Below the pieces are notes generated by a model, which ran no database searches, was not told the DNA's origin, and saw only the letters and a program-made list of their open reading frames with translations. From Terriglobia bacterium (GTDB lineage: Bacteria > Acidobacteriota > Terriglobia > Bryobacterales > Bryobacteraceae), in contig JAJPJN010000070.1 in NCBI GenBank assembly GCA_021324185.1, positions 1 through 64,000 on the forward strand: a stretch of 64,000 nucleotides of DNA, in the 5' to 3' direction. Both the position numbers and the translations under genes were made by a program. Positions 40,864-44,109 of this stretch are shown here, piece by piece (position 1 is the first letter of the stretch; the number at the start of each line of letters is the position of its first letter).

Positions 40864-41490
40864 CTAATATTTCCGCATGATCGCGAGCACTTTGCCCTGC
40901 AGCTGCAGCGCACTCGCGTCCACCACAATCGGGCGCATGTTTGAGTTGGCGGGCTGCAAGCGGACGCGACCGTCCGGCTCGGCAAAATAGCGCTTCAGGG
41001 TGGCTTCTGTCCCGTCCACCAGCGCCACCACGATATCGCCATTTTTTATGTCGCTGGTTTGTTCCACCAGCACGAAGTCGCCGTTGCAAATGTGATCTTC
41101 GATCATGGAATCACCCCGGACTTCGAGCGCGAAAACGTTGGGAGCACCGGCGAAATCAGAAAAATGCAGGGTTTCCGGATTCGCGATCGCTTCCACCGGC
41201 GTACCTGCTGCAATGCGGCCCAGCAGCGGGACCGAAGGCGCCGCCGCCTGCCCATGGCGCGCCCGTTCTTCGGCGAAATAGCGTTCCCCGATTTCTAAAG
41301 ACCGGCTGTGGTTATAACTCCGGCGCAGATACTGTTTGGCTTCGAGCGCCTGCACATGCTTGTGAACCGTCGCGAGCGACGCCAACCCCAACCCGGCTGC
41401 CAGTTCTTCATAGCTGGGGCTGTATCCGTTCTCCTCAATGAACTTCGCCAGAAAGTCCATTACTTCTTTTTGTCGGCGCGTGAGTGCCAA
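40864..41490 (-). CDS. lexA: LexA, SOS-response repressor and self-cleaving protease
   Basis: 208-residue repressor. The N-terminal winged helix starts LALTRRQKEVMDFLAKFIEE and contains GLGLASLATVHKHVQALE. The cleavage site Ala-Gly is in LLGRIAAGTPVEA, the catalytic serine in EVRGDSMIED and the catalytic lysine in GTEATLKRYF. The TTG at 41490 is chosen as start because AGGGAGAT lies seven bases upstream and the protein then begins as in other LexA proteins; an upstream in-frame ATG at 41538 lies at the -35 box. An insertion sequence lies immediately upstream at 41546. Confidence 0.95.
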   Translation of the reverse strand: MALTRRQKEVMDFLAKFIEENGYSPSYEELAAGLGLASLATVHKHVQALEAKQYLRRSYNHSRSLEIGERYFAEERARHGQAAAPSVPLLGRIAAGTPVEAIANPETLHFSDFAGAPNVFALEVRGDSMIEDHICNGDFVLVEQTSDIKNGDIVVALVDGTEATLKRYFAEPDGRVRLQPANSNMRPIVVDASALQLQGKVLAIMRKY

Positions 41491-41509: not shown

Positions 41510-41538
41510 ATTGTTGGCGAACAAAGGTCGAAAGTCAA
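41510..41538 (-). promoter_or_regulatory. Candidate lexA promoter and operator
   Basis: On the minus strand TTGACT (41538-41533) and AACAAT (41515-41510) are separated by 17 bases, a plausible sigma-70 promoter. A palindrome TTGTT-CGCC-AACAA (41524-41511) covers the end of the spacer and the -10 box, where a LexA autoregulatory site would be expected. The first base of the -35 box is the edge of the IS target duplication (41538-41545), so the insertion stopped just outside the promoter. Confidence 0.45.
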
Positions 41539-41545
41539 TAGCCTT
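41538..41545. repeat. Left target-site duplication of the IS
   Basis: The 8 bases ATAGCCTT directly before the left IS end are repeated exactly at 43575-43582 after the right end. An 8-bp duplication is the known value for the IS1595 family. Confidence 0.92.
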
Positions 41546-41583
41546 GGTAATTATCCCCTCAGCTCACGTAACAGGGGTGATAC
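41546..41583 (+). repeat. Left terminal inverted repeat of the IS
   Basis: The outer 12 bases (GGTAATTATCCC) differ from the right end at one position. A second conserved block, TCACGTA (41564-41570), is shared with the right end. Overall 27 of 38 positions match. Confidence 0.9.
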
Positions 41584-41592
41584 GATGAGCGG

Positions 41593-42348
41593 GTGCCGGG
41601 TGCGAGCCTAATAAATTCCTATCTGAAAACAACTAGGGCGAAAGACCATCTCGAAAGCCTTCGTTTGGAAATCCAAAGCTATCGGGAGGGAAAGCCTTAT
41701 ACCATCTTGGGCGAAGATGATCCGTATGGATCTCGCTACCGCGTCAGCATCCAATTGAGCGAGGTTCCGGCTAAAATACCGCTCATCCTGGGCGATCTGG
41801 CCTATTGTCTGCGATCCGCCTTGGATCAGCTTGTGTTCTCCCTCGCCCAGTTGAACGTTGCTTATCCGGTTCAGACCGAGTTTCCCATTATCGATAGTTG
41901 GAACCACGCAAGCAGAAGGCGCTTCGCCCAACAAACCAAAGACGTTCCCGAACAGGCCCGATCCATCATCCAGTCTCTTCAACCGTACAACGCTCCTGAT
42001 CGTACCGCTATTAGATTGCACATGTTGTGGATATTGGAGAAGCTCTGTGTTATTGACAAGCATCGTCGTATTCCGACGCGCACCGTCGATGTTACCTTTG
42101 AAAACCTGCTTCCCGTTGCGTCCAGAGACTCGGTCACCATCGAACGCCTCGATAATCCCACAGTACTGAGCCTTCCTATTCAGTTCAAGAGTCAGATAAA
42201 ACTCAATCCAAGCCTCTCCCTCAAGGTAGTCTTTGGAGATAGCGTGGAAGGTGTCGCGTGTGGCTTCGAAGTCGTTGAGCACGTCTACCACTTCGTCACT
42301 GACCGCGTAATCCCAAGATTCGCGGGCTTCTTTCAACAGCAGATATGA
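41593..42348 (+). CDS. IS passenger protein of unknown function
   Basis: 251-residue soluble protein beginning with GTG at 41593, ten bases inside the left inverted repeat. No catalytic motif is recognised. The helical segment LGDLAYCLRSALDQLVFSLAQ near residue 75 resembles a widespread family of uncharacterised bacterial proteins that share a pattern of the type GDxxxNLRSALDH. The C-terminal half has beta-like segments. A long frame on the opposite strand (41608-42381) looks like a shadow. As part of a mobile element it might help transposition, modulate the host, or simply be cargo. Confidence 0.7.
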   Translation: MPGASLINSYLKTTRAKDHLESLRLEIQSYREGKPYTILGEDDPYGSRYRVSIQLSEVPAKIPLILGDLAYCLRSALDQLVFSLAQLNVAYPVQTEFPIIDSWNHASRRRFAQQTKDVPEQARSIIQSLQPYNAPDRTAIRLHMLWILEKLCVIDKHRRIPTRTVDVTFENLLPVASRDSVTIERLDNPTVLSLPIQFKSQIKLNPSLSLKVVFGDSVEGVACGFEVVEHVYHFVTDRVIPRFAGFFQQQI

Positions 42349-42482
42349 CGGTTCGTAGCAACTAGGATCGAATCCGAACACTTGCGCCTTTCCGGGAAAC
42401 CTGAGATGATTTCCCTAGGCACAGCTCTACTGTTAAGGCGATTCAGGTGCGGCGCTGCCACGCTGCGGCTGTTGAAGCCCCA

Positions 42483-42623
42483 ATGACAAAAAAAGAAAAT
42501 TCAAAGACCAAGGGCGAGGAAGGTGCGGCAAAGCCATTTACCCGCGAAGATTTTCAAGCCTTACTAAAGCGAGCAGCAGTCACCCCGAAGCCCGCACCGA
42601 AACCTGCTCCAAAATCTGCTTAA
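42483..42623 (+). CDS. Small basic IS-encoded protein, unknown
   Basis: 46-codon frame coding a protein that begins MTKKENSKTKGEEGAAKPFT, continues REDFQALLKRA and ends in a Pro/Lys/Ala repeat (TPKPAPKPAPKSA). The composition, a charged lysine-rich start followed by a short amphipathic helix and a PKPA tail, looks like a real small protein rather than noise. It is convergent with the transposase gene and overlaps its last 44 bases. No ribosome binding site is obvious. Confidence 0.45.
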   Translation: MTKKENSKTKGEEGAAKPFTREDFQALLKRAAVTPKPAPKPAPKSA

Positions 42624-43527
42624 ACATCGGACGTGGAACGTTCCGACGATTGTAGCGGAAAGCGTACTCATCCAAGTATGTCTGCAAATATCTCTGACTA
42701 ACTGCGTGATGCGTACCGCCGATCCCGCGTTTAATTAAACTCCAGAATCCCTCGACACAGTTCGTGTGGACGTTCCCCATCACATACACTTTTGAACTGT
42801 GATGAATCCGGTAATGCTGATAACCAGCATTGCGTGTCGAATCATCGCTGCGTCGCAGTCCTTTGATGCCGTCGTAGCCACGATGCTCGTCAGAATAGAT
42901 TGTGCTCTCAGGCAGAACGTGTTCGCGCACGACGCCGAGAAGAGTAGCGCTACCGACCGTATCAACGGTCTTTGCGACAACTCGGCCCTTGCGCTCAACT
43001 ACGCCAACGATCGGCATCTTCTTTGTATCGCCGCGCAGCGGGCGCCCGCGTTGACCCTTGCGAACGCCGCCGTAGTACGTCTCGTCAATCTCCACCGCTT
43101 CTCCCTCCAGTTGCAGATCCTCAGACATCAACGTGCGAATCTGTTTAAACATGCGCCACGCCGTTTTGTACGTCACGCCAGTTTCGCGCTGGATCTGCTT
43201 TGCGGAGATGCCGCACTTCGTTGAACCCATCTGAAACATGGCATGAAACCAAAGTCTCAGGGGTGTAGATGACTTTTCGAATATTGTCCCGGCAAGCGGT
43301 GAAATCTGAGTACCGCAGTGATCGCAACTATAGACCTTCCGGCCCGCAATTCGGTAATGCTTGCGGTCGACCTTGCATTTCTCGCAGGTCGTGACATGGC
43401 CGGGGAATCGCTGTTCCATGATGGCGTCCAGGCAGGCGTCATCATTCGGGAAATCGCGGTTGAAATCATCAACCGTATACTTTTGTGCTTTGTTTAGAAC
43501 GTTGTTCCTGCCTTGAACGTCGCCCAT
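42580..43527 (-). CDS. IS1595 family transposase (ISXO2-like)
   Basis: Transposase of 315 residues from the ATG at 43527. The N-terminal zinc ribbon has two CxxC pairs (CEKCKVD; CDHCGTQ) and precedes a helix-turn-helix-like segment (SAKQIQRETGVTYKTAWRMF). The DDE-fold ISXO2 domain shows EIDETYYGGV, IYSDEHRGYDGI and the C-terminal NCVEGFWSLIKRGI, in line with the DDN(E)K-type acidic motif of this family. An alternative ATG at 43545 lies inside the right inverted repeat, with AGGAG directly abutting it. No frameshift or stop is seen, so the enzyme is probably active. Confidence 0.93.
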   Translation of the reverse strand: MGDVQGRNNVLNKAQKYTVDDFNRDFPNDDACLDAIMEQRFPGHVTTCEKCKVDRKHYRIAGRKVYSCDHCGTQISPLAGTIFEKSSTPLRLWFHAMFQMGSTKCGISAKQIQRETGVTYKTAWRMFKQIRTLMSEDLQLEGEAVEIDETYYGGVRKGQRGRPLRGDTKKMPIVGVVERKGRVVAKTVDTVGSATLLGVVREHVLPESTIYSDEHRGYDGIKGLRRSDDSTRNAGYQHYRIHHSSKVYVMGNVHTNCVEGFWSLIKRGIGGTHHAVSQRYLQTYLDEYAFRYNRRNVPRPMFKQILEQVSVRASG

Positions 43528-43536
43528 ATCCAGATT

Positions 43537-43574
43537 GTGCCACATCTCCTACGTGACGTCAAGGGATAATTCCC
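43537..43574 (-). repeat. Right terminal inverted repeat of the IS
   Basis: Read inwards on the minus strand it begins GGGAATTATCCC and carries the TCACGTA block found in the left end. It includes the extreme 5-prime region before the transposase start. Confidence 0.9.
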
Positions 43575-43582
43575 ATAGCCTT
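43575..43582. repeat. Right target-site duplication of the IS
   Basis: Exact copy of ATAGCCTT found at 41538-41545. Removing the element and one copy restores a continuous sequence between lexA and the response regulator gene. Confidence 0.92.
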
Positions 43583-43683: not shown

Positions 43684-44109
43684 ATGGGTCGTGAAGTTCT
43701 ACTCTACGTTGAAGATGAGGATGCTGCGGCCTTTCTGCTTGAAACCGCAATCAAAGAGGCCCAAATCGATCTCGAATTACGGCGCGTATCCGATGGCGAG
43801 CAGGCGCTTGCTTATCTCAACCATTCAGACGGCTACGAAAGGGCCCCTGACCCCAATCTGATTCTGCTGGATCTGAACCTGCCGAAGAAAAACGGTTTCC
43901 AGGTGTTGAAGGAACTGCATCAGGCTGACGGGTTGCGGAACATTCCCGTGATCGTTTTTACTTCTTCAGCCTTGCCACGCGATCGAAAGGATTCAATGGC
44001 GTTAGGCGCGCGTGATTTCATCACCAAACCGCAATCGTTCGATGAGCTTGTGAACGCGCTGCGTTCTGCGTTTAACCGCTACATGGGCCACAGCACGGCC
44101 AGCGCGTGA
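43684..44109 (+). CDS. Single-domain response regulator (CheY/Rcp1-like)
   Basis: 141-residue receiver domain without an output domain. Acidic pocket residues are in LLYVEDEDAAAF, the phosphoacceptor Asp in NLILLDLNLPKKNGF near residue 64, and the conserved Lys in DFITKPQSFDEL. The loop after the phosphorylation site (LNLPKKNGFQVL) is typical of Rcp1-type regulators that partner phytochrome-like or hybrid kinases. No kinase is adjacent. Its upstream region is the 101 bp between the IS target duplication and the ATG. Confidence 0.94.
   Translation: MGREVLLYVEDEDAAAFLLETAIKEAQIDLELRRVSDGEQALAYLNHSDGYERAPDPNLILLDLNLPKKNGFQVLKELHQADGLRNIPVIVFTSSALPRDRKDSMALGARDFITKPQSFDELVNALRSAFNRYMGHSTASA

Follow-up and report, generated by a model that had tools for sequence, protein, structure and literature searches.

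An IS1595-family transposon upstream of lexA and the probable preference of its clade for sites beside LexA-operator-like repeats

Introduction

How simple DDE insertion sequences choose their targets is poorly understood. In the window analyzed here, a stretch of 64,000 nucleotides from a Terriglobia bacterium (GCA_021324185.1, contig JAJPJN010000070.1, positions 1 to 64,000), an IS1595-type element lies upstream of lexA, which is the master regulator gene of the response to DNA damage. This raises the question of whether the position beside lexA is a coincidence or reflects a preference of the transposon.

Results

A complete IS1595-family element upstream of lexA

As proposed in the preliminary description, the element is a complete member of the IS1595 family, which is borne out by its ends, its duplication and its domain matches. 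It spans positions 41546-43574 (2,029 bp), and the other structural claims also held: the 8-bp duplication ATAGCCTT is identical at 8 of 8 positions, the inverted ends match at 27 of 38 positions, and the transposase gene is an open frame with matches to both family domains. The features of the region are the following:

40864-41490, minus strand: lexA, the target-side gene, 208 aa from a TTG start (TIGR00498 lexA, 1.3e-54)
41516-41532, minus strand: LexA-operator-like box TTCGACCTTTGTTCGCC, separated from the left duplication by 5 bp (22.3 bits on the 38-promoter profile)
41538-41545, no strand: left target duplication ATAGCCTT, an exact match to 43575-43582
41546-41583, plus strand: left terminal inverted repeat, cargo-side end (27/38 against the right end)
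41593-42348, plus strand: cargo gene, 251 aa, of an uncharacterized family (LRSALD ... FP ... QPY ... DKHR) with homologues in related elements
42483-42623, plus strand: short frame of 46 aa, conserved among related elements, with the motif FTREDFQALLKRA and a Pro/Lys tail (33 bits on the peptide profile)
42580-43545, minus strand: IS1595-family transposase, 321 aa (domain and NCBIfam matches)
43537-43574, minus strand: right terminal inverted repeat, transposase-side end (27/38 against the left end)
43575-43582, no strand: right target duplication ATAGCCTT, an exact match to 41538-41545
43684-44109, plus strand: response-regulator gene beyond the element (Response_reg, 1e-21)

The outermost end sequences are GGTAATTATCCC and GGGAATTATCCC, with GG at both ends, and the GGTAATTATCCC-like core of the left end is common to related elements. 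The transposase matches the full DDE_Tnp_IS1595 profile (PF12762, 1-153 of 153, 4e-36), the N-terminal zinc ribbon Zn_ribbon_IS1595 (PF12760, 6.6e-11) and NCBIfam transpos_IS1595 (NF033547, 6.5e-57). With its DDE domain, zinc ribbon, 8-bp duplication, inverted repeats that start with GG and single transposase gene, which is accompanied by one cargo frame and one small frame, the element has the features of the IS1595 family.

The assembly, which we call a draft because its 4,703,675 bases are distributed over 184 contigs, contains the element once, and the search for further copies in the same genome, as recommended in the preliminary description, yielded none. The only other transposase match in this assembly (E <= 0.001) is 38% identical; this IS1595 transposase (L003, G000:C36:189-989) is located close to a contig end. 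The suggestion that the element may be active is favored by the intact transposase, the two intact ends and the perfect duplication, but there is only a single copy. Its designation as a new IS is in agreement with the single copy in the genome and with the nearest transposases being 65-71% identical among the matches listed, in a comparison made outside ISfinder.

The insertion site lies beside the putative lexA promoter

Judged from the sequence, the direct repeat TTCGACCTTTGTTCGCC and the adjoining TTGACT look like the promoter of lexA. The operator-like repeat has the form TTCG-N7-TTCGCC, and the element lies 5 bp upstream of it. The preliminary description mentioned neither this target nor the two passenger frames of the element and their recurrence. 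This promoter block is conserved in relatives, and the same box is kept in each of 38 lexA promoters of relatives, where the best match always agrees at 7 or more of the 10 fixed positions. From this conservation in lexA promoters, we infer that the box is likely bound by LexA. In 6 of 11 aligned relatives (L006, L008, L010, L011, L013, L014), which lack the element, the lexA promoter region is continuous with the response-regulator gene. This identifies the element as an insert. The search for empty sites thus succeeded for the uninterrupted region, but a base-exact site with a single ATAGCCTT was not seen, as the aligned relatives are only about 70% identical.

The strict pattern TTCGNNNTTTNTTCGCC has a single occurrence in the assembly, at lexA, and the looser pattern TTCGN7TTCGCC occurs at background level in this genome (26 versus 31 in the control), so that no wider regulon is demonstrated. 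A second strong box of the same genome, TTCGCCTTATGTTCGCC (L308, G000:C29:5520-5536, 22.1 bits), lies upstream of an 84-aa frame.

Assembly of a set of related elements

Four transposases (alignment A1) were scanned against genome contigs, by which 256 relatives were counted and 80 were taken. At 54 of these 80 loci, two ends were found together with duplications that matched at 7 or more of 8 positions. One of the 54, L132, was later dropped as spurious, and with the addition of the window and L098 the paired set comprised 55 elements. Another 14 of the 80 loci had one clear end (two unpaired ends in L125), and the other 12 were left out, as they either had no end beside the transposase (L151, L167, L170, L181, L190, L195, L197, L201) or an end with 2 mismatches (L188, L189, L193) or, in the case of L160, an end with 1 mismatch. 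There was no good reason for the exclusion of L160; its flank has no box, and its inclusion would change the main count given below to 14/80. Class and order searches returned mostly duplicates, which were removed, and added 9 usable elements (5 paired, 4 one-ended). The order search alone covered 40 regions, 34 of which were duplicates; L295, L299 and L300 had no ends, and the matches in G759, G1023, G801 and G1034 as well as the second match in G941 stayed outside the set.

The final set, which includes L026, thus contains 79 elements, each with one or both ends defined, 60 of them paired, and 140 flanks. For the 19 elements with one end only or with two unpaired ends (L125), the 8 bp beside the end were assumed to be the duplication. 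IS1595 elements at about 40% identity were outside the target test.

A LexA-operator-like box recurs at a fixed distance from the insertion sites

The flanks were examined with a 17-nt box profile derived from the 38 lexA promoters of relatives, from which the window, L026 and L030 had been excluded. At a threshold of at least 12 bits, 14 of the 79 elements had the box at a distance of 5-7 bp from the outer edge of the duplication, always in the same orientation. The 140 flanks of 80 nt contained just 2 further hits at other places. At 8 bits or more, the respective numbers were 16 elements and 3 hits elsewhere. The first 126 flanks (70 elements) had given 13 hits of at least 12 bits, 12 of which were at 5-7 bp and in one common orientation. 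When the same test was slid over the surrounding DNA, 69 of 432,558 positions (0.016%) scored, and in intergenic-like DNA 9 of 21,346 (0.042%). Without the window, which is the index case, and L026, which had been found via lexA, 12 of 77 elements remain at 12 bits. Either end of an element can face the box. No two cases have the same 8 bp next to the ends, and the insertion events therefore look independent.

Simple half-site counts show the same spacing. Among 76 elements with 135 flanks, the outward TTCGC half-site was found 12 times at offset 16, three times at offset 17 and once at offset 18, and the first TTCGC half-site five times at offset 5 and three times at offset 6, with 0-2 occurrences at any of the remaining offsets between 0 and 69. 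Nine usable loci were added after the pattern had been noticed; 3 of them had TTCGC at offset 16 (L234, L236, L261), and L234 and L261 reach 12 bits. L196 passed the simple TTCGC test, but its match lies in a hairpin and appears to be due to chance. L169 has TTCG-N7-TTCG at offset 5 with less than 8 bits and belongs neither to the 14 nor to the 16 elements. None of the 140 flanks contained a LexA box of the types that other bacterial classes use (GAAC-N4-GTTC, GTTC-N7-GTTC, CTGT-N8-ACAG). As the box is missing from 62 of the 79 elements even at the loosest count (17), it is a preference and not a rule.

In principle, an ordinary IS1595 element with near-random targets could have reached the lexA neighborhood by coincidence, as the presence of only one copy and the location of most relatives at other sites might suggest. 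We nevertheless consider this scarcely credible, because 14 of 79 elements lie at the fixed offset of 5-7 bp compared to an expected 0.016-0.042%, and because lexA adjoins 7 of the 79. Moreover, 12 of the 14 box elements were collected by their transposase alone, which refutes near-random targeting unless the set of loci is biased.

Genes and older insertions at the boxes

The elements adjoined by lexA are the window, L026, L124, L126, L162, L164 and L194 (5 of 77 without the window and L026), as determined in the 140 flanks over up to 1.5 kb, with 8 flanks shorter than 400 nt. L194 is a Nitrospinae record, and the other named lexA cases are Acidobacteriota. Going by gene names that come from reading the sequence and not from family searches, the boxes of L173, L125 and L135 adjoin a DUF72-type gene, a threonine-dehydrogenase-like gene and a 206-aa RecA-like frame, respectively. 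Behind the boxes of L169, L175, L234, L236 and L261, no recognizable SOS gene was found. For L128 and L146, the short flanks do not allow the neighboring genes to be judged.

Some loci contain traces of older events. At L164 (4144-4960), the younger element at lexA is directly adjoined by a decayed older IS1595 end (gataattacc) and by a frame that belongs to the same cargo family as that of the window. This appears to represent two successive insertions at one operator, with offsets of 4 and 5. L026, from a congener (G013, same contig as L005), is a decayed IS1595 relative that ends at the same base as the window element but is flanked by a different 8 bp; a second end of it was not found. In L030 (2294-3336; congener, G007), which was not counted, this position at lexA is occupied by an end-like GGCGATTATCC together with a DUF2971 frame. 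Neither a transposase nor a second end was found there, and L030 is possibly a remnant of another IS1595 group.

The common base at which the elements of the congeneric window and L026 end would also be compatible with one old insertion near lexA that was inherited vertically, and so would the similar divergence of the element fragment (68.6% over 220 bases) and the lexA region (70.6% over 625 bases) in the comparison with L005. However, the duplication of the window is still perfect (8/8) although the intergenic DNA can hardly be aligned between the species, the 8 bp differ from case to case, the cases are spread over several clades and two phyla, and both orientations of the element occur. 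Vertical inheritance is thus very unlikely to explain the lexA cases.

Alternatively, insertion could be random, with survival only beside such operators. This has in its favor that the site leaves promoter and operator intact, but many other harmless intergenic sites exist, and we reason that selection cannot easily set a spacing of 5-7 bp on one side of an operator. An explanation by survival alone is therefore improbable.

Transposase clades differ in their recurrent sites

On a transposase tree of 78 rows, 17 of which carried the operator label (L196 included; L026 is absent from the tree), the label was clustered: a quick method gave 12 changes versus 15.7 after shuffling, with 3 of 500 shuffles being as low. 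In the clade of the window (support 90, unstarred), 8 of 12 rows carry the label. A sister clade (9 rows, starred) contains five elements at TGTGACAT-CTRACCTTG-like sites (L131, L136, L145, L158, L159), a dispersed motif present in 38-56 copies per genome. In another clade (4 rows, starred), all four elements (L142, L143, L144, L150) are located at AGTTCAGW|ATAYCA, and three of these four have a terminator-like hairpin on the other side. As the clades favor different recurrent intergenic motifs, the choice of target seems to depend on the clade to which a transposase belongs.

The TGTGACAT-CTRACCTTG-like sites of the first of these clades lie near a TTTTCCACA-like sequence (genomes G143, G834, G763). 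A reading of the TTTTCCACA sites as DnaA boxes was considered and left unproven; the adjoining TGTGACATCTGACCTTG is a dispersed motif with 46, 38 and 56 copies in three genomes at up to 2 mismatches, compared to 2, 0 and 0 for the backward control.

These differences bear on the question of whether the transposase recognizes a DNA feature of lexA promoters, such as the TTGAC -35 box or the TTCGCC repeat, with the LexA protein being uninvolved. The duplication indeed abuts a TTGAC-like -35 box in several cases, and the preference of another clade for a different motif, TGTGACATCTRACCTTG, with 38-56 copies per genome at up to 2 mismatches, points in the same direction. The -35 box alone would be insufficient, as TTGAC is missing beside the operator-like box of L125, L128, L146 and L234 and as promoters are very numerous in any genome. 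Recognition of a DNA feature, in particular of the repeat itself, is a serious candidate, to which we assign nearly an even chance.

A small peptide is conserved in the elements

The small frame of the window is convergent with the transposase gene and overlaps its 3' end by 44 nt. A FTREDFQALLKRA-like peptide followed by a basic Pro/Lys stretch was detected at 12 bits or more in 50 of 60 paired elements, including the 29 elements on which the profile had been trained, whereas none of 12,016 control frames from flanking DNA reached this score. A plain motif search detected it in 30 of 57 elements (one of them, L198, spurious) versus 40 of 10,279 control peptides. The peptide is free-standing in the window, but in L173, L162, L164 and L194 a larger cargo protein carries it at its C-terminus. 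In some elements, its frame ends hundreds of bases away from the transposase gene, and the overlap with this gene therefore does not explain its conservation. Being so widespread, both as a free frame and at the end of cargo proteins, the small peptide is a concrete candidate for a further functional component of the transposon.

Cargo proteins

Passenger genes are known from some groups of the IS1595 family. For the 251-aa cargo protein of the window, no match was found in Pfam, NCBIfam or PADLOC. Of the 60 paired elements, 12 (counting that of the window) contain a homologue, and a search of 297 genomes found homologues in 9 others. Among these 9, only the L022 homologue is demonstrably within an IS1595 element, and L025 has an adjoining end-like sequence. 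A homologue on a Streptomyces plasmid has 31% identity over 59%. Five columns are invariant among 19 sequences of the family. An AF2 model had a mean pLDDT of 82.6, and a fold search with this model against the PDB gave no match at E <= 0.001. An assignment as a HEPN-type RNase, based on R-x4-H after LRSALD, was rejected, since the H is replaced by Q in the window and is not among the five invariant columns, and since no fold was matched significantly. We also dropped an opposite-strand frame of 257 aa, which the longest-frame rule had favored, as the homologues support the 251-aa frame.

A second cargo protein of 338-377 aa is common to sixteen elements, and its copy in L096 (6858-7874) resembles the PADLOC candidate PDC-S45 (4e-16). 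The peptide of the window's small frame recurs as the tail of this L096 copy. From its motifs, we take the 338-377-aa protein to be trypsin-like; Pfam gave no confirmation of this, and no solved structure was matched by sequence.

Discussion

The anatomy of the element, its duplication and the recurrence of its relatives at a fixed distance on one side of the box are direct observations. In agreement with them, a clade of cargo-carrying IS1595 transposons very probably prefers to insert 5-7 bp outside LexA-operator-like repeats, above all those of lexA, and the recurrence beside the same kind of box suggests a transposon that is aiming at lexA-type switches. By analogy to the family, the DDE transposase would act on the GGNAATTATCCC ends and insert with an 8-bp stagger, 5-7 bp outside the upstream half-site of TTCG-N7-TTCGCC direct repeats, with that of lexA as the foremost target. 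The bias would arise at target choice and not by later selection. The insert spares the -35 box, the operator and the gene, which makes the site a safe and conserved harbor.

More tentatively, the transposase, perhaps together with the small peptide, could be a "LexA hunter" that lands on DNA-bound LexA, with sister clades reading other repeated regulatory sites. We see this as possible, if somewhat doubtful. If LexA is the beacon, transposon targeting would be tied to the state of the SOS response. Already a preference for the lexA operator would, if true, link transposition to the DNA-damage response, and clades that each favor a defined intergenic motif would offer a compact, naturally occurring means of inserting DNA at chosen targets. 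The fixed spacing of 5-7 bp makes the targeting idea directly testable. Among the papers listed in searches of the open literature, we found no description of IS1595 elements, or of other insertion sequences or transposons, that target LexA or SOS boxes or lexA promoters or operators, and novelty is claimed within these open-literature searches only, with most subscription journals and ISfinder being beyond their scope.

Among the known transposons with defined landing sites, Tn7 uses attTn7, a harmless and conserved site beside a conserved gene, by means of a dedicated targeting protein. The window element is likewise found at a harmless, conserved site beside a conserved gene; unlike in Tn7, no dedicated targeting protein was identified for it.

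A likeness is also seen with the Tn5053/Tn402 "res site hunters", which, according to the part of PMC7765201 that deals with them, prefer insertion beside a site bound by a protein, in their case resolvase. Both are transposons that prefer a site beside a protein-bound target, although the box is here only predicted to be bound by LexA. As far as the same part of that source extends, Tn5053/Tn402 differ in having TniABQ genes, a 5-bp duplication and a preferred orientation, whereas the window element has only an IS1595 transposase as a recognized transposition gene and duplicates 8 bp, and it and its relatives are found in either orientation beside a LexA-type box.

Within its own family, as characterized in the relevant portion of PMC8101967 by the DDE_Tnp_IS1595 domain, an N-terminal zinc ribbon in all groups but IS1016, an 8-bp duplication and GG-terminal inverted repeats, the window element shares the DDE domain, the zinc ribbon, the duplication and the GG-terminal repeats. 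The preference for LexA-operator-like sites and the conserved convergent small peptide come on top of the family features given in that portion.
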